Source: an uncultured Bacilli bacterium
Lineage (GTDB): Bacteria > Bacillota_I > Bacilli_A > RF39 > UBA660
Direction of reading: 5' to 3'
NCBI GenBank assembly: GCA_944332295.1
Contig: CALVJR010000001.1
Span: 1 to 64,000 of the forward strand
Length of the DNA stretch: 64,000 nucleotides
Part shown: positions 29,329 through 45,430 of the stretch, one piece after another
How the letters are laid out: each line of letters opens with the position of its first letter
Position numbering within the stretch: position 1 is the stretch's first letter
Position numbers and translations under genes: made by a program
Notes under the pieces: model-generated
The model's input: the letters and a program-made list of their open reading frames with translations, nothing else
Told to the model about the DNA's origin: nothing
Database searches by the model: none

Positions 29329-29422
29329 TTATATACCTCCTTTCAAATTACCTTTTACGGTAGAGTAGATGTTACCAAAAATTAAATTAATTACAAGATA
29401 TGTTAGAAAAAAATACAAAATT

Positions 29423-29433: not shown

Positions 29434-29471
29434 CCGTTCGTTAATTAGTTAAACAATGAACTACCAACAAA

Positions 29472-29496
29472 AAAACGAGTTGATTAAACTCGTTTT
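29472..29496 (-). terminator. terminator of the element 2 cargo operon
   Basis: AAAACGAGT / ACTCGTTTT stem, with A residues upstream reading as a T run on the minus strand. Confidence 0.85.
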
Positions 29497-29519
29497 GCAA
29501 TGCTAATAATTAATTAAAG

Positions 29520-30245: not shown

Positions 30246-30266
30246 TTTTTACTCCATTCTATAAAA

Positions 30267-30704: not shown

Positions 30705-30717
30705 ATTATTTCACTCC

Positions 30718-30984: not shown

Positions 30985-31000
30985 ATTAATTATACCTCCC

Positions 31001-31534
31001 TTATTTCTCTTGATTATTTTTTTGCTCTATTATACTGTTCTTTAAAACTTCTAAACACACGTTATCTTTATCACATAATAATTCTAAATAATCTTCCCAA
31101 CGATAAAGTCTTTGCCCATTACTTGTAATGTCTATTGATGTATGTTCACCGATTAAACTTTCTATTTCGTTTATTTTTTTTCCAACAAGTTCTATATCTT
31201 TCATTATTTCGCTAAGATTATGAGCTTTATTTAAATTAATTCCCAATCCCAGCAAAGTAGATCCTAAAATTGGACATATCGTTGCAATAATAGGGTAGAA
31301 ATTAGATAAAAATGGAAAGTTATCATATATAGATACAACATTAAAAATAACGCCAAAACCTACTACCAAAAGAAATACTCCAATAAAAATCATTATTGTA
31401 CCAGAACTTGAACTTTCTCTCTCACTGCTAATAACTGTTACTTCCTTTTGATTATCATTTTCGCTAACCTTTTTCTTTGCTTCATCAGCTTCTGTTACTT
31501 CACCGTTAAAATCCTCTTGAACGTTTTTTTTCAT
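31001..31534 (-). CDS. two-helix membrane protein, unknown
   Basis: A 177-residue protein. The N-terminal 45 residues are charged (DFNGEVTEADEAKKKVSEND). Two transmembrane helices follow (about 47-66 and 78-99), then a helical cytoplasmic tail. First gene of the cargo operon that runs leftward to 29520, with a 107-nt upstream gap that contains a promoter-like TATATAA and a 9-bp motif shared with the XRE promoter. Confidence 0.6.
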   Translation of the reverse strand: MKKNVQEDFNGEVTEADEAKKKVSENDNQKEVTVISSERESSSSGTIMIFIGVFLLVVGFGVIFNVVSIYDNFPFLSNFYPIIATICPILGSTLLGLGINLNKAHNLSEIMKDIELVGKKINEIESLIGEHTSIDITSNGQRLYRWEDYLELLCDKDNVCLEVLKNSIIEQKNNQEK

Positions 31535-31597
31535 ACACTTATAAAATCACCTCTCTATAATAATAGATTAACACATAGAAGATATTTTTACAACTGC

Positions 31598-31606
31598 CAG
31601 GCGACA
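31598..31606. promoter_or_regulatory. AGGCGACAT motif near the cargo-operon promoter
   Basis: The same 9-bp word occurs inverted at 31944-31952, upstream of the XRE gene of element 2. The two sites bracket the regulator gene, suggesting a common operator. Confidence 0.35.
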
Positions 31607-31641
31607 TTTATATAATCTTTTACAAAAAATAAAAAAGACAA

Positions 31642-31890
31642 CTACTTGCTGTCTTCATTAATATCATCAAATAATTGTCTTATATCAATTTCTAAAGCTG
31701 TTGCAAATCTACCTAAAGCTTCTAATGTTGGTGTTTTATCTACCGAAGGACACTCGAGATCCCGTACGTATTGATGGGTAAAATCTGTTTTATCTGCTAA
31801 TTCTTGTAATGTGTAATTTCTCATCTTACGATACTTTCTTATATTTTTACGAACTAAAATAGATAAAGTATGCTTGTCATAACTTCTCAT
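31642..31890 (-). CDS. XRE-family helix-turn-helix regulator of element 2
   Basis: An 82-residue HTH_3 protein (VRKNIRKYRKMRNYTLQELADKTDFTHQYVRDLE) with a short acidic end. It resembles the XRE protein of element 1 over its whole length (RKNI-KYR, NYT-Q-L, LGR-A-AL-IDI). The ribosome site is GGTGAT. It probably represses itself and the operon starting at 31534, given the paired AGGCGACAT words in both control regions. Confidence 0.85.
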   Translation of the reverse strand: MRSYDKHTLSILVRKNIRKYRKMRNYTLQELADKTDFTHQYVRDLECPSVDKTPTLEALGRFATALEIDIRQLFDDINEDSK

Positions 31891-31943
31891 AGATTTATCA
31901 CCACTTTTCTAATCTTTATTATTGCAAATAATTATTGAAAAGT

Positions 31944-31952
31944 ATGTCGCCT
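31944..31952. promoter_or_regulatory. ATGTCGCCT motif upstream of the XRE gene
   Basis: The inverted copy of the 31598-31606 word, 54 bases upstream of the XRE start. Confidence 0.35.
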
Positions 31953-31982
31953 ATGGGTTTAGATGAGATATTACACTTTTAA

Positions 31983-31993
31983 ACAACGTGTAA
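31983..31993. repeat. ACAACGTGTAA repeat, copy 2
   Basis: Second copy of the 11-bp repeat also present at 29423-29433, in the gap upstream of the XRE gene. Confidence 0.3.
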
Positions 31994-32054
31994 ACGATTT
32001 TCTTTTAAGTAAACATATAACAACCAATATAGAACAATTTGGTGCAATTTAATA

Positions 32055-32372
32055 TTACTTTAGTAATTTAGATAGTTCTTTATATACTTTAATGATAAGC
32101 TTTCTAGTTACTTTACTATCTTGTAACCAAATTATATTATCATCTTCTTTTAAAGAGGGGATTTTAAAAGTAACTATCATATACATAAGTAATTCATTAA
32201 TAGTAGCATTTATATCATTTATTCTTTCTACAGTATCTCGGAGATTAATAATTTTAAAAGTTAATATAATTAATTGGAAATCGTGTTCTTTAAGAGGAGG
32301 GCTGCTTTGCCATACTTCATCTTTAAAATAGTTCTCTATCATTTTTATAATATTATCTAATGAACTTCTCAT
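32055..32372 (-). CDS. small helical protein, unknown
   Basis: About 105 residues from the ATG at 32372 (AAAGTGAG site); a GTG at 32384 would add four. It is helical and shows no membrane segment or motif that I recognise. It follows the ClpP-type gene by 8-20 nt and is probably co-transcribed with it, so an accessory or adaptor role is conceivable but untested. Confidence 0.5.
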   Translation of the reverse strand: MRSSLDNIIKMIENYFKDEVWQSSPPLKEHDFQLIILTFKIINLRDTVERINDINATINELLMYMIVTFKIPSLKEDDNIIWLQDSKVTRKLIIKVYKELSKLLK

Positions 32373-32391
32373 ATTACAACTCACTTTCTAC

Positions 32392-32979
32392 TTATTTTAA
32401 AATACTATCAACAAAGCCATATTTTATAGCTTCATAAGCATTCATCCAATTATCTTTTTTATGAGTCATTTTCTTTACTTCCTGAAATGACTGTTTAGTA
32501 TTTTTGGAAATAATTCTATAAAGTTTATTATTGAGTCTTTCTGTGTGCTTAACTTTATCTTGCATTTCTCCAAGTTTTCCAAAACACATAGATGATACTT
32601 CGTGTATCATTATTTCTGCATTTGGTAGTATATATCTTTTTCCCTTAGTTCCATTAATTAAAAGGATGCTTGCCATACTTGCACATCTACCTATACAAAT
32701 AGTTTTTATATCACTTTTAATCATATTCATAACATCATAAATAGCAAGTCCTTCTCGTACTTCACCACCAGGAGAGTTTATATATAATGTTATATCCCTA
32801 TGATTACACATATCAAGCTTCATAAGTTTATCAATTACTTCTTTAGATAATCTTTCATCAATTTCTCCAGTTAAGTAGATAACTCGTTTCTCCAATAAAT
32901 CAACTGATGACACTTTCTTCTTTTCTTTAGACTTTTTATCTTTTCTTTTATTCTTTTTACTATTATGTTTATTTTCCAT
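32392..32979 (-). CDS. ClpP-type serine protease carried by element 2
   Basis: A 195-residue ClpP homologue. The catalytic triad is complete: S101 (GRCASMAS), H126 (IMIHEVS) and D176 (HKKDNWM), with spacing close to that of E. coli ClpP (25 and 49 residues there, 25 and 50 here). The INSPGG oxyanion segment lies at 68-73. The N-terminus carries a lysine-rich extension of about 24 residues in place of the usual propeptide, and the handle region is shortened. A second ClpP on a mobile element may serve a specific substrate or make mixed barrels with the host enzyme. Ribosome site GAGGT. Confidence 0.88.
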   Translation of the reverse strand: MENKHNSKKNKRKDKKSKEKKKVSSVDLLEKRVIYLTGEIDERLSKEVIDKLMKLDMCNHRDITLYINSPGGEVREGLAIYDVMNMIKSDIKTICIGRCASMASILLINGTKGKRYILPNAEIMIHEVSSMCFGKLGEMQDKVKHTERLNNKLYRIISKNTKQSFQEVKKMTHKKDNWMNAYEAIKYGFVDSILK

Positions 32980-32997
32980 ATTTACCTCATCTTTCTA

Positions 32998-33387
32998 TTA
33001 TCTTCTACTAAATATAGCATTTACTAGTTTTCTAGCATTGATTTTACTTTGAGTTCTTGTAATACTATCTTTATCAAAGAGTTTTTGATATTTTAGTATT
33101 TGTTCTTTCGTTAGTGATTTAAAGTCACCCTTAACATAATCATCTCCTACAATTAAAAAGTTATCATAAATAATATCATGTTCAATACTTCTATTAGGTT
33201 TAGATAAATTAAACTTTCCCTCATCATTACAAATTAAGCATACATCATCATCTTTAAGTAAATAGGATACTGCTATTTTACCATTTACTTGTGCTTGAAA
33301 TGATTTTAAAGTATTAGGTATTTCTACTACTTTTGGTAACTCATTAGGGCATATAAGTAATGCCTTTATCTTTTTTATACAAGCCAT
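32998..33387 (-). CDS. DUF3846-like protein
   Basis: A 129-residue protein matching the DUF3846 pattern: ALLICPNELPKVVEIPNTLKSFQAQVNGKIAVSYLL..., VCLICNDEGKFNLSKPNRSI and FLIVGDDYVKGDFKSLT. The family is common on conjugative and other mobile elements and has no known activity. Ribosome site GGGAGGTG. It is the rightmost gene of element 2 and begins the ClpP transcript. Confidence 0.72.
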   Translation of the reverse strand: MACIKKIKALLICPNELPKVVEIPNTLKSFQAQVNGKIAVSYLLKDDDVCLICNDEGKFNLSKPNRSIEHDIIYDNFLIVGDDYVKGDFKSLTKEQILKYQKLFDKDSITRTQSKINARKLVNAIFSRR

Positions 33388-33680: not shown

Positions 33681-33846
33681 CAGTATGTCAGATAGAATTA
33701 TTGTATTATCAAAACGCCCAGCAACAGTAAAAAAAGTATATGAAATTAATATGCAAAACAAATCAACTCCAATTCATAATAGAAAATGTAAAGAGTTTGC
33801 TAGTTACTATGATGAAATATGGAGGGATTTAGATGTCCACATATAG
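33667..33846 (+). pseudogene. 3' part of the ABC ATPase
   Basis: The last 55 codons of the ATPase: AEAISMSDRIIVLSKRP, then the C-terminal tail KEFASYYDEIWRDLDVHI. It has no ribosome site or start and cannot be expressed alone. Its TAG overlaps the ATG of the permease gene (33833) by 14 bases, as expected for a tightly coupled operon. Confidence 0.9.
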
Positions 33847-34452
33847 TGAAGAACATATTAAATATTTAAAAAAGCAAAAAAAAGAAAAAAGAATTATTTG
33901 CTTTTTTCGATTACTAATTATCATTTGCTTTTTAATAGCCTGGGAACTACTTTCTAGGTTTGAACTAATTAACACATTTTTATCATCATCACCAACAGAA
34001 GTCATAGAAACAACTTATCAATTATTGCAAGATAAAACATTATTCACACATATTGGAGTTACGCTATATGAAGTATTAATAAGCTTCTCTGTTGCCACAC
34101 TAATAGCTTCCATAGTAGCAATTGTTCTTTGGAGTAATAAAATTATTGCTAAAGTAATCGACCCTTATTTAACAGTTCTAAATTCATTACCAAAAGTAGC
34201 CTTAGGACCATTAATTATTATCTGGGTAGGAGCAAGCACCAATTCAATTATTTTTATGGCTCTACTGATTAGTACTTTTGTGACAATAATTACAATCTAT
34301 CAAGGATTTGCTGAAACAAATCAAAGTTATATTACATTATTAAAATCTTTTGGTGCTAATAAAAGACAGATTTTTATGAAAGCAATATTTCCAAGTAATA
34401 TTCCAACATTAATTAGTGCTCTAAAAATAAATATTTCTATGAGTTTAATCGG
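33833..34452 (+). pseudogene. 5' part of NitT/TauT-type ABC permease, split by element 3
   Basis: The first 206 codons of an SsuC/TauC-like permease. A basic cytoplasmic start is followed by a helix, LSSSPTEVIETTYQLL, three more helices, and the coupling EAA loop LLKSFGANKRQIFMKAIFPSNIPTLISALKINISMSLIG. The host frame ends at the GG core; the reading continues 11 codons into element 3 (GLLPPVGENFII, stop at 34489). Joined to 45418-45601 the product is 267 residues, the usual length. Confidence 0.92.
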
Positions 34453-34478
34453 ACTATTACCCCCAGTGGGAGAAAATT
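34440..34478 (+). other. attL of element 3
   Basis: Host GAGTTTAATC meets the element at GG (34451-34452). The next 25 element bases match the inverted right end at 22 positions (CTATTACCCCCA then GGGAGAAAAT in both). Confidence 0.85.
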
Positions 34479-34485
34479 TTATTAT

Positions 34486-35832
34486 CTAATAAATATTGTA
34501 GTAAATATTGATTTCGTTATCGTTAACTACAACTTTATCAATTAAATGTTCAATAATTCTTCTTTGTTCATCAAAATCCATATCAAACCAAGTTGCTTTT
34601 AAATTAGTTATCATATTTAAAGATACTTTGTTATCTTTTTCTTTTTTGTCTGATGATAATAGTTTTTCTTCTATTTGTTCTTTTTCTTTTTCTAATTCAG
34701 TTATTTTTTTATTAGTTTCATCTACTGCAATACCACTTGCTATAAAATTTAATAGATTATTAATTTGTTTTTTTATTTCTTCTAGCCTTGCTTTTAACTC
34801 GTTTTTAACATTAACACTTGCTATATTAAAAGTCTTTTTAAATAAATCTATATCTAAACTCATTTTAAATAATTCTTCTAATACAGCATCTTCAACTTCA
34901 AAAGTGTCCCATCTTTTGTTTTTGCAATTAGGGTCTTTTATATATTTGGGTTTACTTTTTTGTTGTGAATAACAATACATAATTAATCTTTTACCCCATT
35001 TTTGATACCTATACTTTGCTCCACAATGTCCACAATAAACTTTACCAGATAATAAATAATGTCTTTCATATTTTTCACGACTTCTTACTTTATTTACTCT
35101 TAAAATTTCTTCATATAGTTCATCAGATACTACTGCTTCATGTTGTCCATCAAACACTTCATCTCTATATGGTACTTTACCAGTATTTGTAATAGATAAA
35201 ATTCTTGTTTCAACAAGTGATTCATCCATTCCAACAATATCTCCAATAGCATTAAAACTTTTTCCACTAATATATAATGAAATCATTTTATGAAGCAATT
35301 CTACTTGTTCTGGTATTGGTACTAATGTACCTGTATTTCGGTCATATCTATAAGGAAAAGGTATTTTACCTCCACCTCGCCAAAGTCCTGCTTCTGCACG
35401 TTTTTTAAGCCCTATACGAGTTCTTTCTAATATAGTTTCCCTTTCTAATTGGGCAAATACTGATAATACACCAATCATTGCTTTCCCAAATGGAGATGAT
35501 GTATCAAAGTTTTCTCTCATTGAAATAAAACTTACATCATATTTATTAAATACTTCTTCAATTAAATATAAAGTGTCTCTTTGACTTCTTGAAATTCTAT
35601 CTAATTTAAATACAAACACTGCATCAATTTTATGATTTTTGCAATCTTCTATAAGTCTTTGGATTGCAGGTCTATTTAAATCTTTTCCAGAATATCCACC
35701 ATCTATATAGTATTCAAATTCAGTATAGTCTTTGCTTTTTGCATAACTTATCAAAAATTCTTTTTGGGCATCTATTGAATATCCCTCAAGTTGACTGTCA
35801 GTAGAAACTCTTGCGTATAATCCTGCTTTTAT
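34486..35832 (-). CDS. large serine recombinase (integrase) of element 3, apparent ATA start
   Basis: A serine recombinase of 448 residues if read from 35832. The catalytic serine is S10 in AGLYARVSTDSQLEGYSI, followed by GGYSGKDLNRPA, FKLDRISRSQRD and MIGVLSVFAQLERETI. A zinc ribbon (CGHCGAK, later C at CYSQQ and CKNK) precedes a coiled coil. The first in-frame ATG/GTG/TTG is TTG at 35754, which would remove the catalytic serine. A perfect AAAGGAGG stands seven bases before an ATA codon at 35830-35832, exactly where family members have ATG. Either ATA is used or the start has been mutated. Confidence 0.88.
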   Translation of the reverse strand: MKAGLYARVSTDSQLEGYSIDAQKEFLISYAKSKDYTEFEYYIDGGYSGKDLNRPAIQRLIEDCKNHKIDAVFVFKLDRISRSQRDTLYLIEEVFNKYDVSFISMRENFDTSSPFGKAMIGVLSVFAQLERETILERTRIGLKKRAEAGLWRGGGKIPFPYRYDRNTGTLVPIPEQVELLHKMISLYISGKSFNAIGDIVGMDESLVETRILSITNTGKVPYRDEVFDGQHEAVVSDELYEEILRVNKVRSREKYERHYLLSGKVYCGHCGAKYRYQKWGKRLIMYCYSQQKSKPKYIKDPNCKNKRWDTFEVEDAVLEELFKMSLDIDLFKKTFNIASVNVKNELKARLEEIKKQINNLLNFIASGIAVDETNKKITELEKEKEQIEEKLLSSDKKEKDNKVSLNMITNLKATWFDMDFDEQRRIIEHLIDKVVVNDNEINIYYNIY

Positions 35833-35915
35833 ATTGTTACCTCCTTTTTTAAGACAGGATTATAAGATTCCAATTACATTTTACCACATAACTAGAATCT
35901 ATTACATCTCTTTTA

Positions 35916-36026
35916 TTATATATGAGCATATTTTTTAACAATTTCATATATAACCAAGTCTGTTATTTTAATTTCACTTGGATCTATTTTTTTCCCATCT
36001 TTATCATAGTTATTAACAATTATCAC
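35916..36026 (-). CDS. microprotein upstream of recombinase 3
   Basis: A 36-residue frame from GTG 36026 behind GAGGTG: IIVNNYDKDGKKIDPSEIK... The start compares with the element 1 microprotein (V-I-N-I-Y-N-x-x-G-K). It lies about 80 bases upstream of the recombinase, on the same strand. Function unknown. Confidence 0.5.
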   Translation of the reverse strand: MIIVNNYDKDGKKIDPSEIKITDLVIYEIVKKYAHI

Positions 36027-36065
36027 TTTCACACCTCTAATAATTTTTATGATAACTAAAAATTA

Positions 36066-36491
36066 TTATTCAAACTCCTTTAACATTTCTACCATTTTTA
36101 AATACTCAGGGTCATCTTCTTCAAGAATATTGGATTCACATCTTTTTCCATCCCAAACTTCTACACCATCTGGATCATATCTTATATGAGGTCCTTTTTT
36201 GCCACTTATTATTTCATTTTGAATATCTGAAATATCTGTTACTGTAACAAAACTTTGTATTTTATTATCAGTAATATAAGAATTTAGATAACCTTTTATA
36301 AACACTTTTGTTCCTTTAACAAAAAAATCTTTATATATTTCATAAAGATTTCGGTTAATATTAAAACTAGCATATACTTTTCTTTTATCATATTTAAGGG
36401 TAGTTAACCCAAATTTAATATAATCATTATTATTATCTGTTACATTATTAATAGTTCCAGATATTATTATTTCATTTAAATCAATTTCCAA
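36066..36491 (-). CDS. SSB-like OB-fold protein of element 3
   Basis: A 141-residue protein: IIISGTINNVTDNNNDYIKFGLTTL, then NINRNLYEIYKDFFVKGTKVFIKGYLNSYITDNKIQSFVTVTDIS, matches the strand plan of single-stranded-DNA-binding proteins. An acidic C-terminal end (EEDDPEYLKMVEMLKEFE) recalls the SSB tail. The start is TTG at 36491 behind GAAAGGAAG with 8-nt spacing. It probably protects single strands formed during transfer or replication. Confidence 0.6.
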   Translation of the reverse strand: MEIDLNEIIISGTINNVTDNNNDYIKFGLTTLKYDKRKVYASFNINRNLYEIYKDFFVKGTKVFIKGYLNSYITDNKIQSFVTVTDISDIQNEIISGKKGPHIRYDPDGVEVWDGKRCESNILEEDDPEYLKMVEMLKEFE

Positions 36492-36640
36492 TTTTATTAC
36501 TTCCTTTCTTTTTAATTATTTTAAGATTTAAATTATTTAAATAAATTTAAACTTATATTATCTATTAATATTATTTATTATATTATTTATTTTGTTAGAA
36601 GATACTTGCTATACTTAATAGAAATATCTTGCTATAAACT

Positions 36641-36919
36641 CTAGAAAATATTTGCTAAATATATTCTTCTAATATTAGGTTCACATTCAACTTTAATATA
36701 TTTCTTTTTTCTTAACGAAGAAATACAACTAGTGATTGTTCTTTTGGATACTTTCATAAGATTACTTAAATACTTATTACTTGCATAACAAAATCCCTCT
36801 TGCATAGATAGAGTAGTTATTAAACCCATTAATAATTTTGTAGTAGTAGATAAATCTTCATCTAATAAAACTATTACTGGTACTTCTACATATTTTAAAT
36901 TAGTAATATCATTACTCAT
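36641..36919 (-). CDS. winged-helix protein (replication-organiser type)
   Basis: A 92-residue protein. PVIVLLDEDLSTTTKLLMGLITTLSMQEGFCYASNKYLSNLMKVSKRTITSCISSLRKKKYIKVE is a helix-turn-helix of the HTH_36/replication-organiser kind, where the recognition helix is VSKRTITSCISSL. It ends right after the wing. Such modules are found at the start of plasmid and phage replication proteins; here only this domain is present. AAAGGAG site. Confidence 0.65.
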   Translation of the reverse strand: MSNDITNLKYVEVPVIVLLDEDLSTTTKLLMGLITTLSMQEGFCYASNKYLSNLMKVSKRTITSCISSLRKKKYIKVECEPNIRRIYLANIF

Positions 36920-36958
36920 AATATCAATCTCCTTTCTTTAAATTTAGACAATAAAAAA

Positions 36959-36979
36959 ACTTGTAATCTATTTACAAGC
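36959..36979. terminator. hairpin between the two winged-helix genes
   Basis: CTTGTAA/TTTACAAG with a short loop and A residues upstream that read as T on the minus strand; probable terminator of the 37457 gene. Confidence 0.55.
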
Positions 36980-37031
36980 CATACTAATAATGACAATAAA
37001 ACTCCCACGTGAGATAATACTCACTAAATGC

Positions 37032-37100
37032 TTGAAGTAAAACATATATAAAATATTTCAATCTATTTTTGTTTGTTCTTTGAAATATGTTTTACTTCAA
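37032..37100. repeat. 16-bp perfect inverted repeat with 37-nt loop
   Basis: TTGAAGTAAAACATAT (37032-37047) is repeated inverted at 37085-37100. It lies between two winged-helix genes, in a position like the inverted repeat of element 2 (26669-26749). It may be an origin or a structured RNA. Confidence 0.65.
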
Positions 37101-37190
37101 ACTCGTTTATCTTATATTTCTATAAGATAGGTTCTAATATAAATCTACGAACATTTACTGAACCTTTATTTGTTAGCGATTCAATCCTTT

Positions 37191-37457
37191 CTAACAAAAT
37201 TCGTATGTGTATAATCCGTTGCTGTATTCATTAAATCTTATATAATTATTATCTTCTAATATTTTAAGATTCTTTTTAAATCCAACATTTGTTATACTTA
37301 ATGTTTTTTGAACTTTCCCAATGCTTATACTTGTATAATCACATCTTCCTGATTGTTCAGCACAGAGTAGTTTGTATATCAGTTTTGTTTCAAACTTGAT
37401 ATTTTTATCTTTCCATACTCTTGGGTCAATTAACTCTAGTTGTTTTTCTTTACTCAT
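37191..37457 (-). CDS. second winged-helix protein of element 3
   Basis: An 88-residue protein with the same plan as the 36641 gene: LIDPRVWKDKNIKFETKLIYKLLCAEQSGRCDYTSISIGKVQKTLSITNVGFKKNLKILEDNNYIRF. It is one winged helix-turn-helix and nothing else. It has an AAAGGAGG site. Together the two may form the replication or copy-control unit of element 3. Confidence 0.6.
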   Translation of the reverse strand: MSKEKQLELIDPRVWKDKNIKFETKLIYKLLCAEQSGRCDYTSISIGKVQKTLSITNVGFKKNLKILEDNNYIRFNEYSNGLYTYEFC

Positions 37458-37488
37458 ACATTTGATTTCCTCCTTTCTTTTTCTAACT

Positions 37489-37605
37489 TACCCATTTAAT
37501 TTAAAAGTGGGTTCATTTGGAAACATCTATAATATATCATGCTAATTACTAGCTTGTAAATATCTTTTTACCCATTTTTTGAAATATTGTTGACATTTTT
37601 ACCCA
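37489..37605. promoter_or_regulatory. cluster of TACCCA words in the divergent control region
   Basis: TACCCA occurs at 37489-37494, 37569-37574 and 37600-37605, and inverted as TGGGT at 37508-37512 (with the first copy forming an imperfect dyad). One copy lies inside the promoter spacer of the XRE gene at 37640, a normal place for an autorepressor site. Confidence 0.45.
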
Positions 37606-37618
37606 ATAGGTGTATTAT
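37590..37618 (+). promoter_or_regulatory. strong promoter of the XRE gene
   Basis: TTGACA (37590-37595), a 17-nt spacer and TATTAT (37613-37618), then GAGGTGA and ATG at 37640. Confidence 0.8.
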
Positions 37619-37639
37619 TATGATGTGAGGTGAATTTCT

Positions 37640-38140
37640 ATGCTAGAAAAAAATATCGGTGAAGTAATTACCGAGGCAAGAGAAAAAGCTAATCTTTCGC
37701 AAAGACAACTTGCAAAATTAGCAAATATTAATAACTCAGAACTTTCTAAAATAGAATCAGGAGTTAGAAAAGAACCTAGTCCTAAAATACTTCGCAAAAT
37801 AAGTAATGTATTAGATGTTAATTATAGTGATCTAATGTATATGATTGGATTAGGTATTGAAGTAAGTCCATTAAATCCTTTTATAAAAGATTATTATTCA
37901 AAACTAAAAGGAGAAGAACTTAATGAGGCAGAAGTTAATGTTTTAGGAAATAAACAAAATCTTGAAAAATTAGTTTTATCTTGTGAAGAAAAATTAAATG
38001 ATAAAAGCATAATAGAAAGTGAAAGAGAGTTATTACAAAATACTATTGAAGATACAAAATATCAAATAAATACACAAAATGAAATTATTAATTTAATTCA
38101 AAGTTTAAAAGTAAAGGAGAGAAATAAAAATGCGAAATAG
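37640..38140 (+). CDS. XRE-family regulator with C-terminal coiled coil
   Basis: A 166-residue protein. Residues 6-66 are a classical HTH_3 domain (GEVITEAREKANLSQRQLAKLANINNSELSKIESG). The remainder is a long amphipathic, probably coiled-coil region, useful for dimerisation or partner binding. It overlaps the following membrane-protein gene by 11 bases, so the pair may be a cytoplasmic regulator and a membrane partner. The TACCCA cluster upstream is its likely operator. Confidence 0.82.
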   Translation: MLEKNIGEVITEAREKANLSQRQLAKLANINNSELSKIESGVRKEPSPKILRKISNVLDVNYSDLMYMIGLGIEVSPLNPFIKDYYSKLKGEELNEAEVNVLGNKQNLEKLVLSCEEKLNDKSIIESERELLQNTIEDTKYQINTQNEIINLIQSLKVKERNKNAK

Positions 38141-38558
38141 TAAAATATTAAAAATAGCAGTAATATTATTATCAATATTCTTTGTAGTAAGTTTTGGATT
38201 ATCACAAATAATTGCAAATGATTATTTTAAAAATATGTTTTGGGTTTCAACTGCACTTCTAACAGTTGGTCTTATATTAGAGTTAAATGATTGGAGCAAA
38301 TTAGGACTAGATTTAGATAAGAATAAATCTAAAACTATTAAAAGAAGTTTTGATGATAGCACAACATTATTGGTTGTATTTTTTGGAACATTATTATGTT
38401 TAGTTGTATTCTTTGATACATTTAATCATGATGTTATGAAAAATAATTTTGTCATAATAGGTACATTTATTATGACAATAGAATTTGAATTATTTATGTA
38501 TCTATCTGTATGGAATGCTAAAAAAGATACTGCAAATTTATTAAAAAATAATAAATAA
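38130..38558 (+). CDS. four-helix membrane protein, unknown
   Basis: A 142-residue protein with about four hydrophobic helices (7-28, 37-52, 75-95, 107-126) and short loops. It overlaps the end of the XRE gene and has an AGGAGAG site inside it. No family recognised. Translational coupling to a regulator suggests a shared function, such as immunity or signal input; this is inference. Confidence 0.6.
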   Translation: MRNSKILKIAVILLSIFFVVSFGLSQIIANDYFKNMFWVSTALLTVGLILELNDWSKLGLDLDKNKSKTIKRSFDDSTTLLVVFFGTLLCLVVFFDTFNHDVMKNNFVIIGTFIMTIEFELFMYLSVWNAKKDTANLLKNNK

Positions 38559-38561
38559 TTC

Positions 38562-38618
38562 AAATAAAAAATAACCTTTTACCTTTTCATTAGATTAGGT
38601 ATTAGGTTATTTTTATTT
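38562..38618 (+). terminator. terminator after the XRE/membrane pair
   Basis: AAATAAAaAATAACC pairs with GGTTATTTTTATTT at the ends of the segment. Confidence 0.65.
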
Positions 38619-38746
38619 AAAGAATACGGGGCACGTTTTGCGAGTTTACTCGTGAAAGTGGCGATAGTATTCTTTCTTTTTTATGAAGTCGTAAGACAAA
38701 ATAAAAAAGGCAACATTCACTTACGAAAGTTTGTGATATGTTGCTT
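38618..38746. other. structured segment next to oriT
   Basis: Two hairpins in a row: TAAAGAATAC/GTATTCTTT enclosing an inner CGAG-TTTA-CTCG (38618-38682), and GCAACAT/ATGTTGC (38711-38745). The stretch is more GC-rich than its surroundings and holds no frame. It may be part of the transfer origin or a small RNA. Confidence 0.45.
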
Positions 38747-38773
38747 ATTGGGTTTCAAAAGGGTATCCCTTTG

Positions 38774-38839
38774 CACACTATTCCTAGTTGGCTAAAAGCC
38801 GACTTGGTAGTGTGTTACTTATTTGGATTTCAAATAAGT
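38774..38839 (+). other. candidate oriT of the MOBV type
   Basis: TAGTGTG|TTA at 38808-38817 equals the nick sequence of the pMV158 (MobM) family. It is preceded by a matched arm CACACTA (38774-38780) and an inner stem AGTTGGC/GCCGACT, giving the hairpin just 5' of the nick that MOBV relaxases recognise. A further hairpin ACTTATTTG/CAAATAAGT follows (38817-38839). The element's own relaxase (42418-43713) is a MOBV protein, which supports the call. Confidence 0.75.
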
Positions 38840-38950
38840 TTTCTATAAAAATACATCAGTCATAAAATTTCTTTTGAATCTTTTTTATTATTATTAATTC
38901 TATATTCAAAATTTCTTCAAAAAAGCAGACCAAAGTATGATTTTAATAGT

Positions 38951-39826
38951 TTATTTTTTAGATAAATCTATACTTAATATTTCTTCTTCATAATCACAAT
39001 CTAGGGTTAGTTCATAACCATCGCTTGTTTCAATGCTGTCATAATAAGAACTATAAGATTCTTCTATATCTTTAACTTCATAACCTGCATCTTGAAGTGT
39101 TTTGACATACACTTTAAATTTTTCTTTAGTTACTCCATAGCAGTCAAAATCTATTTCTTCCTCATCATCTATATCTGAATCTAATAATGTATATTTACAT
39201 TCTGGTTTTATTACCTTTTTTGCAATTTCTGTTTTTGGCCATTCGTTAAGTTGATTTGATTCTTCATCTATCAACCACTTTTTTTCATTGTAGTCATAAT
39301 ATGCAATATATAATACATCGTTTTCTCCTATTACACCAATTTGTAATTCTTTTGGTTCCATTAATTCAAATTGTTCTTTGCTTGGTGTATTGTACCACGA
39401 ATATTTTTCATACCCAATATTTATTACTGCTTTTTCAATTGAGTTTTCTTTTTCTACTAATTTTTCTCCACTTGCTCTTAAAATTACACCAGTTACATCG
39501 TCACTTTCTATCCAATCATAATGTTCCTTCATAAAATTATCAAAAACACTAAGTTCAGATTCTGTAACACTATCTTTAGGTTCATAATCAATTTGAAATG
39601 CTACAACAGGATATTTAGAATTATTAGTAAATGTTGCATAATAATAATCTTCACCATATTTTTTTGATATTCCTGTTTCAATACTAAAGTCTTCAATAGA
39701 CAAATCACTTGCCTTTAATGCTTTGCTAAATAATGAGTTTTTCTCTCCATTACTATCTTTACCACATGCTGTCAAACATAGAACAGCTAAAAATAAAATA
39801 AATACATTTAAGATTTTCTTTTTCAT
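38951..39826 (-). CDS. lipoprotein, unknown (possible DUF6591-like C-terminus)
   Basis: A 291-residue protein with a lipoprotein signal and lipobox LTACG (cysteine near residue 21). The middle part (ISKKYGEDYYYATFTNNSKYPVVAFQIDYEPKD) looks like an Ig-like or FxLYD-type extracytoplasmic domain. The acidic C-terminus (YGVTKEKFKVYVKTLQDAGYEVKDIEES) recalls a domain seen in other Firmicutes lipoproteins. AAGGAG site. Cargo of unknown use. Confidence 0.65.
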   Translation of the reverse strand: MKKKILNVFILFLAVLCLTACGKDSNGEKNSLFSKALKASDLSIEDFSIETGISKKYGEDYYYATFTNNSKYPVVAFQIDYEPKDSVTESELSVFDNFMKEHYDWIESDDVTGVILRASGEKLVEKENSIEKAVINIGYEKYSWYNTPSKEQFELMEPKELQIGVIGENDVLYIAYYDYNEKKWLIDEESNQLNEWPKTEIAKKVIKPECKYTLLDSDIDDEEEIDFDCYGVTKEKFKVYVKTLQDAGYEVKDIEESYSSYYDSIETSDGYELTLDCDYEEEILSIDLSKK

Positions 39827-39880
39827 AATTTTTCTCCTTACTTCGATTATATCACTTAAAAGTAAACTTGTTTACTTTTG

Positions 39881-40081
39881 CTATTTTTTAGGTTTCTTTT
39901 TTTTACCTTTATCTTCTCCAAGATATTTAATTAAAGTAGATTCTTTAATTTTTCCATCTTGCACATCGCAAAGTGTTTCATTAGCTGCTTTTTCACCAAA
40001 TTTAGTTAATAGTGTGTCATAAGTATCTATTGACATTTTAGGTCGAGTATTCTTGCCGTATTTATCTGCAAACCATCCCAT
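39881..40081 (-). CDS. 66-residue basic protein, unknown
   Basis: A small protein behind a strong GGAGGTGA site: MGWFADKYGKN... with a helical middle (YDTLLTKFGEKAANETLCDVQDGKIKESTL) and a lysine-rich end. Good ribosome site and spacing argue it is real. No family recognised. Confidence 0.5.
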   Translation of the reverse strand: MGWFADKYGKNTRPKMSIDTYDTLLTKFGEKAANETLCDVQDGKIKESTLIKYLGEDKGKKKKPKK

Positions 40082-40163
40082 TAGTTCACCTCCGTTTTTA
40101 CAGAATTAATACTTTCCTTTGTAAGTATTTTATATATTTTTTTTATTTGCGTTATTAATAAAT

Positions 40164-40313
40164 TTATTCATTAATATAATCGCCATTGTTATCGACATAC
40201 CATGTTTCGCCACACTCTGGACATGATATTTCCCATTTATTTTTTCCAACTTTCTTTGCTGTCATTACACTATAACATTTGTCACATACCCATTCAATTA
40301 ATTCAACAGACAT
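40164..40313 (-). CDS. 49-residue zinc-ribbon protein
   Basis: A frame of 49 residues that begins ATG at 40313 after GGAGG. WVCDKCYSVM and SCPECGETW give two CxxC pairs, a rubredoxin-like or ribbon zinc site, followed by an acidic end. Its function is unknown; size and position suggest a small accessory protein of the element. Confidence 0.55.
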   Translation of the reverse strand: MSVELIEWVCDKCYSVMTAKKVGKNKWEISCPECGETWYVDNNGDYINE

Positions 40314-40327
40314 ACAATTTCCTCCTT

Positions 40328-40912
40328 TCAAAAAACATTTGTTAAAAATATCAGTACAATTATTTGAGTTATTATTATTAATGGTACGCCTATAGTAAAA
40401 TAATCTTGTTGTGTTTTATGTCTAAATACATACATTGCAAGTAAACCACCTAAAGATCCACCTATAAAACACAATCCTAATAGAGTTACTATTTTATATC
40501 GCCATTTTTTTGATATTGCATTCATTTTGTCTAATGCAAATACTATAAGAGTAACAATATTTATTATTAATAGATATATGAGTAATATTTTGTATTTTCC
40601 AAAGAATTCCCAAATTGCTAATGTAAAATTTTTCCCAAAATTACCTTTAATCATTATAAATAAAACTAATTGAATAACAAACATACAAATAACAAAAACT
40701 CTAGACATCATATTATCTTTAACATTTTCCCTATCAAATAATAATATTGCTATTATTATTCCTAGTGAACCTCCCATAAATGATGTTATTGTAAGCAATG
40801 TGTCAACTTGTCCATTACGAGTAAATCTATATAACAACATATTTATGCAATAAAGAATAAAACCCATAATATTTATTATAATAACATATATATCAAATGC
40901 ACCTATTCTCAT
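40328..40912 (-). CDS. membrane protein with C-terminal DUF1294 domain
   Basis: A 194-residue protein with five to six membrane helices. Its last 80 residues carry the DUF1294 signature: ALDKMNAISKKWRYKIVTLLGLCFIGGSLGGLLAMYVFRHKT. DUF1294 proteins normally have only this half; the extra N-terminal helices are unusual but seen in Clostridia. The function of the family is unknown. GAGGAG site. Confidence 0.75.
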   Translation of the reverse strand: MRIGAFDIYVIIINIMGFILYCINMLLYRFTRNGQVDTLLTITSFMGGSLGIIIAILLFDRENVKDNMMSRVFVICMFVIQLVLFIMIKGNFGKNFTLAIWEFFGKYKILLIYLLIINIVTLIVFALDKMNAISKKWRYKIVTLLGLCFIGGSLGGLLAMYVFRHKTQQDYFTIGVPLIIITQIIVLIFLTNVF

Positions 40913-40996
40913 ATTTTAACTCCTCAACAAAAGACTATTTGATGTCAAACATATTATATCACAGATTATCGTTTTTTTATTAATCATACATGTATT

Positions 40997-41287
40997 TTAA
41001 ATATATTCATTTAATTTTTCTAACAACATTATTTCTTCATTAAATTCAATATATAAATCATTAATCTTTTTATTATATTCTTCTAGTTTATTATTATAGT
41101 CAATAAGCTTTTTCTTTTGAAAAAATAATGGTTTATCATCTTTTAAATCATTTATTAAAGTTTGATAGAATTGTATTCTTTTCTCTATTAATTTTAAATT
41201 TAAATTAGAATTTTCGATAAAATAATATGTAGTAAATTTTAATAAAGATACTGCTAGTTCTGTATTATCATCCTTTTTAGTGCTCAT
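40997..41287 (-). CDS. small helical protein, probable coiled coil
   Basis: A 96-residue, Lys/Asn/Glu-rich protein with a continuous helical pattern (LKLIEKRIQFYQTLINDLKDD and KLIDYNNKLEEYNKKINDLYIEF). It has a good AGGAGGT site. No family recognised. It is divergent from the XRE gene at 41384. Confidence 0.5.
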   Translation of the reverse strand: MSTKKDDNTELAVSLLKFTTYYFIENSNLNLKLIEKRIQFYQTLINDLKDDKPLFFQKKKLIDYNNKLEEYNKKINDLYIEFNEEIMLLEKLNEYI

Positions 41288-41383
41288 TTAACTGTACCTC
41301 CTATATATCATTATACCATATAGCCCCTAGTTTTAGTGATAAAAGTTTTTTTAATGGGAAAATTATTATTAGGTGATAGTTAT

Positions 41384-41809
41384 ATGTTTAATAATAATTT
41401 GAAAGAAGCTAGAGAAAATTTAGAAATGACACAAAAAGAACTTGGATATGTTTTTGGTGTTCATGAAACAACTGTTTCAGGTTGGGAAACTGGTAAGGAT
41501 AATATTCCTTTAACAAAATTAGTTAGATTTTGTAATTTATATAATTATTCATTAGATTTTATTGTGGGATTTGATAGAAAAAATAAACAATACAATACAC
41601 AGATTAAATTAGATAAAAAGAAAATAGGTAGTAAATTAAAAATTATTAGAAAAAAACTTAATTTAACACAACAACAAATTGCAGATGAATGTGGTATATC
41701 TCAAACTACATATAGTAATTATGAACTAGGCATTAATCTAATAAATACTCTAACTTTATATACAATATGTAAAAATCATAAAATATCAATGGATTCATTT
41801 TTAAGATAG
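41384..41809 (+). CDS. XRE-family regulator with two helix-turn-helix domains
   Basis: A 141-residue protein from ATG 41384 (AGGTGA site). It carries two HTH_3 domains in tandem: LKEARENLEMTQKELGYVFGVHETTVSGWETG (about 4-35) and LKIIRKKLNLTQQQIADECGISQTTYSNYELG (about 80-111). Both keep the Q-x3-A/G-x3-G core. Tandem XRE proteins can bind two half-sites as a monomer. It may control the relaxase operon on the opposite strand. Confidence 0.8.
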   Translation: MFNNNLKEARENLEMTQKELGYVFGVHETTVSGWETGKDNIPLTKLVRFCNLYNYSLDFIVGFDRKNKQYNTQIKLDKKKIGSKLKIIRKKLNLTQQQIADECGISQTTYSNYELGINLINTLTLYTICKNHKISMDSFLR

Positions 41810-41813
41810 CAAA

Positions 41814-41852
41814 AAAGTGAGAGTATGCTAATATAACATGTTCTCACTTTTA
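41814..41852 (+). terminator. terminator after the tandem-HTH gene
   Basis: AAAGTGAGA / TCTCACTTT stem; it can also end the minus-strand 41877 gene. Confidence 0.75.
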
Positions 41853-41876
41853 TAATGAATTTAAAGAGTAATAATA

Positions 41877-42245
41877 TTAATATACATTTAATTCTTGATT
41901 AATTATAGTATTGATTTCTTCATTTTTAAAATCATATTGAAAAATATTAAATAACAATTCAACCGAAAATTTTTGCTTTTCTTCAATTGATAATTCCATA
42001 TATTTTGCTGATATAGATAATAGATTTTTATATTTAGAAAAATTGATTATTTTATTTTTTGAATTAGGTTCAATTATTTCTAATAGTTCTTTTAATAATT
42101 TTAAGATTCTTTGAATATCATAATTAGTAGTAAAACCTAAACTTTCAAATATGTGGATTGCTAATCTTATTTTATCAATACCATTTAAATCATCTACCAT
42201 TTGGGCTAAATGTATAACTTTTTCTGTATTATTATCTAATAACAT
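41877..42245 (-). CDS. 122-residue helical protein, unknown
   Basis: A soluble helical protein (VIHLAQMVDDLNGIDKIRLAIHIFESLGF at the start) behind AAAGGAG. It is the last gene of the minus-strand run that begins at the antitoxin. No family recognised. Its place downstream of the relaxase suggests a mobilization accessory, without further support. Confidence 0.5.
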   Translation of the reverse strand: MLLDNNTEKVIHLAQMVDDLNGIDKIRLAIHIFESLGFTTNYDIQRILKLLKELLEIIEPNSKNKIINFSKYKNLLSISAKYMELSIEEKQKFSVELLFNIFQYDFKNEEINTIINQELNVY

Positions 42246-42417
42246 AAATATTCTCCTTTCAAATACGCCATTTAAGGCTCGTTATTTTATAGACCAGATA
42301 AGAGATTAAAACCTTACTTAAAATTTAAATATAAGCGTTTAAATAGGCTATAATCTCAAATTCTGTCTTACTATTTATCACTCTAAAATAAAAAAAATCA
42401 AGAGTATTTTTAAATTT

Positions 42418-43713
42418 TTATCTACTCATATCAAAATCATCTTTATCGTAATCATAGTCATCATAATCTCTAACTCGTTCTTTTAAATAATAAGGTGCAT
42501 CAACATAATCAAATAATTCATCTTGTTTAGTAGTTCCTTTAGATATTCCTACAACATCTTTCATATCAAATTCTTCATTATCATAACAATCTTTAATAGT
42601 ATCAGTTGCTTCATCCTTTGTATAATCATTACCTCGTTGTAATAGTTTTCTTAAAAATTTCTTTAATAATTGAAATAGTTCATTTAATCTATAAATCAAA
42701 CTTCTATTTTCTTGTTCTAAGTTTTTATTCTCATATTCTAATTTATTTACTTCTTTCTTATATTTTTGGTTTTCTTTTTCAAGAGATTTATAACTATTAG
42801 CATAACTATCAACCTCATTAAATATTGCTTGTAGTTTAGGTTGTAATTCCATTACTTTTTTAGATTCATTGATTACATTATTCATACTATCAAAAGTATC
42901 TTTTTTAACCTTAACATAATCTTTATCCACAATGAATGTTTGTTTGGTAGTTTTCATTTTTTCTTCAAAATCATTCAAAGATTCAACAAATCTATCGTTT
43001 TTAACATTTAGTTCATGATTCAGTTTTTTAGTAAGTCGTTTATATTCCTTTATTTTAATATTTTTATTATCACTACCTTTAATACCACGTTCTAAGTCAT
43101 AACCTGCATCAGTTAGTCTTTTATGATACATATCTTGCAGTTGTGATAATTGAACTTTATCTTTAATATATTGTTTTTTAGATATTGTGTATCTTTCCGT
43201 TTTAGTTCTATTATCTAGTTTTTTAACAAGTGGAACAACAACACAATGAACATGAGGTGTTAATTCATCTAAATGAACTGTTGCATGTAAAACTTGTTCT
43301 TTTTTATAACCTAAATCTTTATAAACAAATTCCATACAAGTATCTGCCCATTCTTTTATTTGTTCCCTTGTCACATCTTTAAAAAATGTATGAGTTGCAG
43401 TAAATATTAGTTCATCTGCCACACAATTTTTTGAACTATTCAGCATTTCATGAAATTTCTTTTGTCTAGATTTTCTTTCCGTTTTCATTCTCTCATCATG
43501 TTCTTTTTTATATTCTTTTGTTAATTCATCAAAACCTTTAACATATTTAACATCAAGTGGAACAAGTTCTATATTATTTTTAGTTAATTCTAACTTTATA
43601 TCTGGGTTAGATTGATATGCCTTTTTTTCTCTTTTATTATGGGATCCAATTTGTGCTAAATCATATATAGTCATAATTGGTTCGCTTCTAAATATTGCAT
43701 AATTTAAATTCAT
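42418..43713 (-). CDS. mobV: MOBV-family relaxase (Pre/Mob)
   Basis: A 431-residue relaxase of the Pre/MobM family. The metal-binding HUH motif HLDELTPHVH lies at 147-156. The N-terminus (NYAIFRSEPIMTIYDLAQIGSHNKREK) has the family start, in which a histidine near residue 25 is the candidate nucleophile of this group. The second half is a long coiled coil, as in MobM. It nicks oriT and leads the single strand into the recipient through a helper channel. GGAGGT site. Its candidate oriT lies 4.9 kb away at 38774-38839. Confidence 0.93.
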   Translation of the reverse strand: MNLNYAIFRSEPIMTIYDLAQIGSHNKREKKAYQSNPDIKLELTKNNIELVPLDVKYVKGFDELTKEYKKEHDERMKTERKSRQKKFHEMLNSSKNCVADELIFTATHTFFKDVTREQIKEWADTCMEFVYKDLGYKKEQVLHATVHLDELTPHVHCVVVPLVKKLDNRTKTERYTISKKQYIKDKVQLSQLQDMYHKRLTDAGYDLERGIKGSDNKNIKIKEYKRLTKKLNHELNVKNDRFVESLNDFEEKMKTTKQTFIVDKDYVKVKKDTFDSMNNVINESKKVMELQPKLQAIFNEVDSYANSYKSLEKENQKYKKEVNKLEYENKNLEQENRSLIYRLNELFQLLKKFLRKLLQRGNDYTKDEATDTIKDCYDNEEFDMKDVVGISKGTTKQDELFDYVDAPYYLKERVRDYDDYDYDKDDFDMSR

Positions 43714-43791
43714 ATTATCATACCTCCATTCTTAAATTTAATGCAAAAAAAAAGATACCTATTTCTAAGTATCTTTGCTTATTTATTATTT

Positions 43792-44448
43792 TTAACTTAT
43801 TTTATTTAAACAATAAAGTTCTATATATTTTAATCTTTCTTCTTCAGTTATTTTATAACTGTTTTCTTTAAACATTTTATTTAATTTATCATAATGTCCA
43901 TTTATGCTTTCATGACTAGCAACAATCATATCCATATTTGATACATTAGTTAAATCTAAATTAATACCATTTATTTTAGCAAGTGATTCTATAAACATTC
44001 TTTGACTTCTACCATTACCTTCACGAAAAGGGTGTAATGCATTTATATCTGCAAATAATTCTACTAATTTCAAAATTGTAGTTTCATAATCATAATCCAT
44101 ATAATAATTTTCTTTTTTCAATTTATTAAATATATCATTTGCAAATGATTCAATATGTTCAGTTAAACAAAATAAATCTTGTTTTGCTATATTACAATTT
44201 CTAATATCTCCAGCCCATCTATAAATATCTTGAAATAAATATTTATGTATGGCTTTTAAATAATTGAAATCAAAATTACCTTTTAAAGGATTATCATTAA
44301 ATGCTGATACTCTTAAAGATACTAATTCTCTTTCCGCATTATATAAATCTTCATCATTAGTAATATTTAATTTATTTATTAAAACATCAGTATCTTTATA
44401 ACAGTAATCAGCTGTTTTCTCATAAGTATATTTATACTTACTATCCAT
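43792..44448 (-). CDS. Fic-domain AMPylase toxin
   Basis: A 218-residue protein from ATG 44448 (AGGAG site; the longer frame from 44469 lacks one). The complete Fic catalytic motif HPFREGNGR lies at about 139-147, preceded by the helix typical of the fold; RWAGDIRNCNI is the flap region. Fic enzymes transfer AMP (sometimes other nucleotides) from ATP to a target protein, and class I members are held inactive by a separate antitoxin. The start overlaps the antitoxin gene by eight bases, so the two are coupled. Confidence 0.9.
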   Translation of the reverse strand: MDSKYKYTYEKTADYCYKDTDVLINKLNITNDEDLYNAERELVSLRVSAFNDNPLKGNFDFNYLKAIHKYLFQDIYRWAGDIRNCNIAKQDLFCLTEHIESFANDIFNKLKKENYYMDYDYETTILKLVELFADINALHPFREGNGRSQRMFIESLAKINGINLDLTNVSNMDMIVASHESINGHYDKLNKMFKENSYKITEEERLKYIELYCLNKIS

Positions 44449-44635
44449 ATATTCTCCTATATTTTTCAATTATTTTTTGTCTTTCCTTTTCATAAGTAGA
44501 TTTACCAGTTATACAATCATATAATTTCTTTTTAATTTCCTTTGTTAAAGGCATACCTTCTTGTGCCATAGCACCATCAACTTTTCTTATTTTTTCTTGT
44601 ATTTCTTTTTCAGTTAAATTGATGTTTTTATTCAT
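44441..44635 (-). CDS. VbhA-like Fic antitoxin
   Basis: A 64-residue protein, read from ATG 44635 (a GTG at 44644 is possible). Its helix with KVDGAMAQEGMPLTKEI aligns with the VbhA inhibitory helix, where the motif S/T-x3-E-G/N carries the glutamate that blocks the ATP site of Fic. The glutamate and glycine are present (AMAQEG), but the S/T position is alanine. Gene order antitoxin-toxin and size support the assignment. Confidence 0.75.
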   Translation of the reverse strand: MNKNINLTEKEIQEKIRKVDGAMAQEGMPLTKEIKKKLYDCITGKSTYEKERQKIIEKYRRIYG

Positions 44636-44729
44636 TGAAATCACTTTCTTTCTTTTCTAATTTGATATAAATATTATACCACAAAACCCTACATTTATCA
44701 TTACTTTATATGCAAGTTTTAGAGTATTT

Positions 44730-45338
44730 TTACTTAATAATTTTTAATATATTATCTTGGTCATATTTATTTATTAAGTTTTTAAATCCACTTATAAATA
44801 CATCCCAATTATTTGGAATCATATCATGTCCATTAAAACATTCTGATAACCCGTTATAATATTCTAACTTTAATATCCATTTATAATTATCATAATCTTT
44901 ATTAATATATTCTTTATTCCAAAAATTTATTTTAGATTTAGTAATACTATCTAATATTTTAATTTTTTCTTGATTAGATAATATTTCTTGATTTATTAAT
45001 TCATAATTTCTTTTAATTATAAAAGTTGCTCTTTCATCAAATATAAACTCAAATTTATATCTTAATTTACTTAATATAAATACTAAAGTTATTTTACTTA
45101 TATCTACTGCATATAAGTTTCTACCAGAATTAAATGATTTATGACATATTTTACAATACTTATTATAATTATGGTCGGTTATAAGTGTTCCATCATAATT
45201 TTTTCTTTTAGGTTTTCTAATATTCTCTGAATATTTAACTTCTTCATTACTTTTTTTATTAAATGTATTATTATCATTATATCTATATAGATAAATAATA
45301 CTTATAGTTTCCTTACTATTACAATAAGGACAAGTCAT
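44730..45338 (-). CDS. zinc-finger protein at the right end of element 3, unknown
   Basis: A 202-residue protein from ATG 45338 (GGGAG five bases upstream; ATG 45350 possible). CPYCNSK near the start and CKICHKSF near residue 75 give two CxxC pairs that could bind one zinc. The rest is helical and charged. No family recognised. It begins 66 bases from the right attachment core and may be the first gene transcribed from this end. Confidence 0.55.
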   Translation of the reverse strand: MTCPYCNSKETISIIYLYRYNDNNTFNKKSNEEVKYSENIRKPKRKNYDGTLITDHNYNKYCKICHKSFNSGRNLYAVDISKITLVFILSKLRYKFEFIFDERATFIIKRNYELINQEILSNQEKIKILDSITKSKINFWNKEYINKDYDNYKWILKLEYYNGLSECFNGHDMIPNNWDVFISGFKNLINKYDQDNILKIIK

Positions 45339-45389
45339 TTTTGCTCCCATATTTATTACTACCTTTCTTGGAATCTTATAACCCTTATC

Positions 45390-45430
45390 TATTTTCTCCC
45401 TGTGGGGGTAATAGCGGTGTCATCATGGGA
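45390..45430 (+). other. attR of element 3
   Basis: Element bases ATTTTCTCCC-TG-TGGGGGTAATAG lead to the GG core (45416-45417), then host TGTCATCATGGGAG. The rebuilt site TTTAATCGGTGTCATCATG reads L-I-G-V-I-M in the permease frame. Confidence 0.85.

Follow-up and report, generated by a model that had tools for sequence, protein, structure and literature searches.

Among the described systems closest to the locus reported here, pMV158 with its relaxase MobM, the MOBV1 prototype, combines a Mob_Pre relaxase carrying the motifs HxxR and HxDExxPHxH with the nick sequence GTGTG/TT, in which the slash marks the nick (PMC5863519, PMC5090054). Its origin of transfer (oriT) lies upstream of mobM, overlaps the mobM promoters and contains three overlapping repeats (PMC5863519). 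IMESag-rpsI of S. agalactiae, with the relaxase MobSag, is a MOBV integrative mobilizable element that has its own oriT and no secretion genes and is arranged in the order oriT - mobSag - ssoA, the oriT being upstream and the putative ssoA 3' of the relaxase gene; the mobilization modules of both IMESag-rpsI and pMV158 include a single-strand origin (sso) (PMC5090054). A conserved noncoding region beside an oriT is also known from the mobilizable island SGI1, which has a relaxase of another type and in which the need for an RNA (sgm-sRNA) has been shown (PMC9299015), and anti-defence genes are a feature of the leading regions of conjugative plasmids (PMC11541004). The closest named relaxases in the plasmid collection, at 33-39% identity, belong to MOBV plasmids of Priestia (pBEH8, NZ_CP015330; NZ_CP018881; NZ_CP127880; NZ_CP040364), in which inspection by eye showed a nick GTGTG/ flanked by inverted arms, preceded immediately by hairpins and closely followed by another one.

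The window analysed here, a stretch of 64,000 nucleotides from an uncultured Bacilli bacterium, shares the Mob_Pre relaxase and the nick sequence with pMV158, the lack of secretion genes among the scanned ORFs with IMESag-rpsI and the hairpins around the nick with the Priestia plasmids. The latter are plasmids that lack the hairpin termed A below and have their oriT on the coding strand, immediately before the relaxase gene, whereas the oriT in the window belongs to an integrated element organised as follows.

34453..45417, integrative mobilizable element of about 10.97 kb, inserted in an ABC-transporter permease gene
34453..34476, + strand, left terminal inverted repeat or att arm, ACTATTACCCCCAGTGGGAGAAAA, 21 of its 24 bases pairing with the right end
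34486..35832, - strand, large serine recombinase (integrase), Pfam Resolvase and Zn_ribbon_recom, catalytic YARVST present
38840..42417, cargo slot, 0 to 7.2 kb long in homologues and varying in gene content
38951..39826, - strand, slot gene for a lipoprotein of no Pfam family
40328..40912, - strand, slot gene for a DUF1294 (Pfam) membrane protein
40997..41287, - strand, slot ORF for a 96-aa protein
41336..41809, + strand, Xre-type regulator, the sole slot gene opposing the relaxase direction
41877..42245, - strand, slot gene adjoining the relaxase gene, with a similar protein at the same place in the homologous locus L046
42418..43713, - strand, Mob_Pre (PF01076) relaxase, motifs HNKR and HLDELTPHVH, motif II NIEL without tyrosine
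45392..45415, - strand, right terminal inverted repeat or att arm, TTTTCTCCCTGTGGGGGTAATAGC on the + strand

The insertion splits the permease gene into a first part, the gene 33833-34489, which ends ...SMSLIG, and a remainder from about 45418, which starts VIMGELLVSKSG; an intact homologue from the same genus runs across the junction (...SMSLIGVIMGELLVSKSG). No VirD4- or VirB4-type Pfam match was found in the ten element ORFs scanned, all of them larger ORFs outside 44730-45350. The integrase, the defined ends, the restored target, the element's own relaxase and oriT (one Mob_Pre gene and one oriT in all) and the lack of secretion genes among the scanned ORFs thus identify an integrative mobilizable element. 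Two VirD4-type coupling proteins encoded elsewhere in the same genome, which holds at least seven Mob_Pre loci, are its possible helpers.

The relaxase scores 98.2 bits against PF01076 (cut-off 25.5) and carries both motif I, HxxR, and motif III, HxDExxPHUH, the main residues of which are invariant in 12 homologues; by its domain and these two motifs the predicted protein is a member of MOBV (Mob_Pre). Motif II, seen as NY(D/E)L in MOBV1 members, reads NIEL or NVEL in all 12 homologues and has no tyrosine. This tyrosine, absent from the window relaxase, is dispensable if cleavage is performed by a histidine, as in MobM (PMC5863519).

Several other features of the element and its surroundings were recorded. 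No ATG, GTG or TTG start precedes the catalytic motif of the recombinase, and its N-terminus as read from the DNA has ATA in the start position (window 35830-35832) behind GGAGG, a good ribosome-binding site. ATA starts occur likewise in other Mob_Pre relaxase genes (L137; L132), and a copy in the same genome (L022) has ATG where the window recombinase has ATA; such starts are possibly a way of holding mobility genes low. A Fic/Doc-domain gene (43792-44640) adjoins the relaxase gene and has a small ORF directly upstream, the two looking like a Fic toxin-antitoxin-type pair. Left of the element lies a second mobile-type block (26872-33387) with a small serine recombinase (28195-28800), a ClpP-like protein (32392-32979) and small lipoproteins.

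The expected nick, at 38814/38815 on the + strand, closes a hairpin formed by the arms CACACTA (38774-38780) and TAGTGTG (38808-38814) around ttCCTAGTTGGCTAAAAGCCGACTTGG and followed by TTA, so that the context TAGTGTG/TTA with a 5' inverted repeat, as in a pMV158-type (MOBV1) oriT, is present. An earlier sequence-only reading of this DNA had proposed the same MOBV nick site, with the correct sequence and coordinates, and had placed it between a membrane-protein gene and a lipoprotein gene; the flanking genes are as it described, and neither matches Pfam. It had also named another MOBV site nearer the relaxase gene as one finding that would overturn it, and no other matching site was found, TAGTGTGTTA occurring as a single exact copy in the window. 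Its one-mismatch versions there number three, which is at chance level, and the one at 40010, in the cargo slot, is without an inverted arm. A looser oriT core pattern has one match in the whole genome. The 10-mer TAGTGTGTTA by itself would carry little weight; the site exceeds chance because of the fold of 38610-38850 and because 29 of the 98 genomes of the same family that were searched at the DNA level contain matches to the array.

Folded as single-stranded DNA, these 241 bases reach -51.3 kcal/mol, against -19.8 +/- 3.2 for shuffled sequences (z -9.9), and form six consecutive hairpins, of which the strongly folded array spans 38619-38839.

38619-38675, + strand, hairpin A, invariant CACGTTTTG...TGAAAGTGGCGATAG, in the window CACGTTTTG...GTGAAAGTGGCGATAG, with variable, covarying apical and basal stems
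38676-38709, + strand, hairpin B, A/T stem
38710-38744, + strand, hairpin C, conserved loop TTAC[GA]NNAGTTT on a variable stem
38758-38772, + strand, hairpin D, AAAGGG-TAT-CCCTTT, abutting hairpin E
38774-38814, + strand, hairpin E, the nick hairpin CACACTA...TAGTGTG, with the nick expected at its end
38817-38839, + strand, hairpin F, beginning 2 nt past the nick, its stem in the same register in most homologues
38567-38614, + strand, separate inverted repeat outside the oriT

The separate inverted repeat is probably the terminator of the membrane-protein gene 38130-38558. The two further hairpins that had been counted in the 130 bases before the nick hairpin are in fact four (A, B, C and D), with F added past the nick. 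Of 43 distinct flanks, 34 have a hairpin F that starts exactly 2 bases past the nick and has a stem of 7-10 bp, and stems of at least 6 bp arise in 15% of shuffled flanks; only a few bases, the nick among them, therefore separate hairpin E from hairpin F. The nick, the arms and hairpin D are intact, and F covaries among the homologues. The pairing counts for the outer stem of hairpin E are built in by the search rule, which required matching arms, and weight is therefore put on hairpin F, on the hairpin A inserts described below and on the sites found by BLAST. A scan of the array against Rfam returned no family, BLASTN against plasmids and phages gave only short chance matches, and a pattern scan of viral contigs gave one chance match, apparently within a coding region. 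The loop of hairpin C also occurs in three loci of another clade.

The distance between this oriT and its relaxase gene had been given as 4.9 kb. The two are indeed far apart, and the figure is the distance to the start of the relaxase gene; the nick lies 3.6 kb from the stop codon, on the strand opposite to the coding strand. This reversed placement characterises the clade. Loci from the 98-genome search that retain an intact relaxase of this clade carry the oriT beyond the 3' end of the relaxase gene and the nick site on the non-coding strand, and about 36 of 38 clade loci with both parts visible have it there, the count being approximate as some loci from the contig scan are the same elements as those from the 98-genome search. 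In compact elements the nick is 24-48 bp past the relaxase stop codon, the range being 24-37 bp in those from the 98-genome search, and in split elements the oriT is 0.7-7.2 kb from the stop, with cargo between. The scan of genome contigs added 79 further loci from Bacilli MAGs such as Candidatus Onthousia, which share the geometry wherever a site was recognised, except L097 (oriT 284 bp beyond the stop but on the same strand as the relaxase gene) and L051 (oriT at the 5' side of the relaxase gene); the contigs are fragments of MAGs, and where no oriT was recognised, an assembly break or a site overlooked by the pattern may be the cause.

Outside the clade the layout is the familiar one. At the distant Mob_Pre loci of Clostridia (L116, L119, L120; 28-29% identity) the site is found on the coding strand, some 100 bp ahead of the gene, and in all six named MOBV plasmids used as controls (four of Priestia, 33-39% identity, and two of Staphylococcus, a staphylococcal plasmid with a similar oriT, L221, standing in for pMV158) it is just upstream on the coding strand. 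This arrangement agrees with the published layouts of pMV158 (PMC5863519) and IMESag-rpsI (PMC5090054). Across the clade, by contrast, the oriT is not directly upstream with its nick on the coding strand, and instead of three overlapping repeats with the nick inside IR2 there are two separate hairpins, E and F, that flank the nick on either side. The nick sequence is that of known MOBV systems, and the 3'-side position, the strand and the non-overlapping repeats differ from the pMV158-type oriT. On the sequence comparison, the window is a split example of a reversed-oriT clade, and its oriT-relaxase distance results from cargo inserted between the two. A literature search that covered few subscription papers found no description of hairpin A or of a MOBV oriT that follows the 3' end of the relaxase gene.

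Relaxase and oriT distances correlate across the loci (Mantel r 0.28, 2/5000 permutations), also among the split loci only (r 0.25, 21/5000), indicating that the pair has been inherited jointly and kept together despite the distance; such a correlation is evidence of shared history and no proof of recognition. The compact or split state changes four times on the relaxase tree. A variant nick, TAGTGGG, is found among the treed loci only in the nine-row subclade of the window and always with the compensating arm CCCAC, the match of these arms being a condition of the search.

The sequence-only reading had regarded the site as a detached pMV158-type oriT, possibly a relic of module shuffling, a view that finds no support in the comparison with compact relatives, in which the reversed 3'-side position is the norm. 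In its stricter form, with the relaxase dead or using another site, the relic explanation draws on the 3.6 kb that separate the site from the relaxase gene and on the frequent decay of integrative mobilizable elements. It appears very improbable, as the window has no other matching site and the genome a single match to the core pattern, the relaxase is open with an intact HUH motif, and the geometry is the same across the clade. The detached state is unlikely to be decay, since it is kept over large divergence with nick, arms and hairpin F intact, hairpin D likewise preserved, F covarying in homologues and the distances correlated among split loci too.

Service in trans by the relaxase of another resident integrative element, the resident Mob_Pre protein acting elsewhere, would be in keeping with the at least seven Mob_Pre loci of the genome, one of which (C55) has the same kind of oriT, and with the known parasites that consist of an oriT only (PMC5704250). 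Every compact homologue, however, joins the same oriT directly to the same relaxase clade and the distances of linked pairs correlate, which makes this arrangement improbable. We regard the array with its nick hairpin at 38774-38814 as most likely a functional MOBV-type oriT of the approximately 11-kb element, a judgement that includes the element itself and the geometry.

Far less confidence attaches to what hairpins A and C do. The pattern CACGTTTTG-N4-30-GAAAGTGGCGATAGT has four copies in the own genome and occurs in 23 of 96 family genomes, and a reversed control pattern gave no match. The N stretch, which lies outside the selection, folds in all 27 distinct versions, and all 27 apical inserts have their third pair, where shuffled partners would lead one to expect 10.7. 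At neighbouring positions a T-G pair is found in 35 of 35 and a G-T pair in 34 of 35, part of this stretch being fixed by the search pattern; these wobble pairs can form on the nicked strand only, since its complement would have A-C mismatches in their place, and it is thus the nicked strand that folds. With a covariance model, hairpin A was detected in 19 of 38 genomes of the family. About 258 other genomes of the class gave no match, nor did any genome from outside the family in a phylum sample of 392. Hairpin A accompanies at least three Mob_Pre clades and was detected in no other bacterial family: copies away from window-type oriTs lie 5' of other oriT-like hairpins on the same strand, directly upstream of Mob_Pre relaxases from at least two further clades. 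Of the 30 sites in the window's clade that have sufficient flank, 20 carry hairpin A and 10 do not, so that it is not strictly needed.

In some arrays (L016/L038, L023, L136) a second, degenerate hairpin A between A and B stretches the distance from A to the nick from about 139 to about 205 bases. In the 1.7-Mb genome (G000 C1, C2, C8, C20, C55, C69) hairpin A occurs seven times and Mob_Pre loci number at least seven, which is unusually many for elements of this kind. A literature search for the motif GTGGCGATAGT returned nothing relevant by title. Hairpin A as a simple terminator was rejected, because some of the bases that do not pair are invariant and because no T run accompanies it in other clades.

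The part of the array 5' of the nick might work as RNA, namely a mobilization sRNA like the sgm-sRNA of SGI1, a leader or a terminator, and covariation and strand-specific wobble fit RNA as well as single-stranded DNA. SGI1 offers the precedent of such an sRNA beside an oriT (PMC9299015). A consensus scan of 38450-38980 found no sigma-70-like promoter or terminator-like site, no Rfam family matched, and in other clades hairpin A precedes quite different sequence, still 5' of a nick-like hairpin on the same strand; an RNA function is accordingly considered unlikely.

Hairpins A to D form a folded sequence on the nicked strand 5' of the nick, as expected of an sso on the displaced strand, and hairpin A is close to the nick, whereas the putative ssoA of IMESag-rpsI is 3' of the relaxase gene. 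Hairpin A could instead be a docking site for a host or helper factor that ties several Mob_Pre relaxosomes to a common coupling protein. Its sharing by at least three relaxase clades within a single family (19/38 genomes) speaks for such a site, and the invariant unpaired sequence within GTGGCGATAG suggests that sequence is read; restriction to one family fits docking at least as well as an sso. The position just 5' of the nick, last to enter, also fits an sso, however, and hairpin A is absent from 10 of 30 sites. The docking function is thus a serious possibility that falls short of being probable.

The cargo slot differs greatly among the elements. Slots of other split elements contain transporters, VanZ-like proteins, radical SAM proteins and regulators, and in L064 a reverse transcriptase. 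The slot ORFs of at least 70 aa run in the relaxase direction in 82 of 97 cases, so that the transferred strand is the template of these 82; as the genes that would enter first, those of the slot recall the leading regions of conjugative plasmids. Several of the 15 opposing ORFs are Xre-type regulators. Beyond the oriT the ORF directions are 50 to 31. Operon structure alone could explain the bias in the slot. An anti-defence role of the slot, as in conjugative-plasmid leading regions, was considered and found no support, since the cargo is varied, with no anti-defence enrichment shown, and the PADLOC matches are mostly generic HTH regulators. The slot reverse transcriptase (L064:3764-4807) is akin to defence reverse transcriptases (PADLOC RT, E 1e-36; RT_UG17 E 2e-27) and lies beside a 613-aa protein with no PADLOC match. 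In another slot (L028:6987-9849) three tandem genes with very similar starts are likely repeated copies.

The following course of transfer is proposed. The relaxase would bind hairpin E, nick at 38814/38815 in the 2-nt gap between E and F and lead the + strand through the mating channel of a resident conjugative element, the distance created by the inserted cargo being bridged because the relaxase is diffusible. Hairpin F would enter first, followed by the cargo slot, the relaxase gene (antisense), the Fic gene, the right end, the left end, the recombinase gene and last the A-B-C-D-E array, the end of which would be rejoined. Hairpins A and C would act on the transferred strand as single-stranded DNA, during or after transfer, the likeliest function being either that of an sso, from which the complementary strand is made, or that of a docking site whose factor is common to several relaxase clades in this host family. 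The wider proposal, that these two hairpins are a transferred-strand signal common to several Mob_Pre clades of one family, be it a new type of sso or a docking site, and that the oriT-relaxase interval is a dedicated slot for the first genes to enter, is offered tentatively and is, on balance, doubtful. As the nick no longer overlaps the relaxase promoter, unlike in pMV158 (PMC5863519), the relaxase is plausibly free of self-regulation in the whole clade.

Searches for oriT limited to the region just upstream of the relaxase gene would miss the whole clade and label its elements as lacking an oriT. The reversed layout would free the relaxase promoter from its own nick site and let the cargo slot lead the transferred strand. 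Hairpin A, shared as it is among clades, may provide a handle on what an oriT needs on the transferred strand besides the relaxase in Gram-positive mobilization, and it also bears on whether that additional part of the oriT is host-specific.
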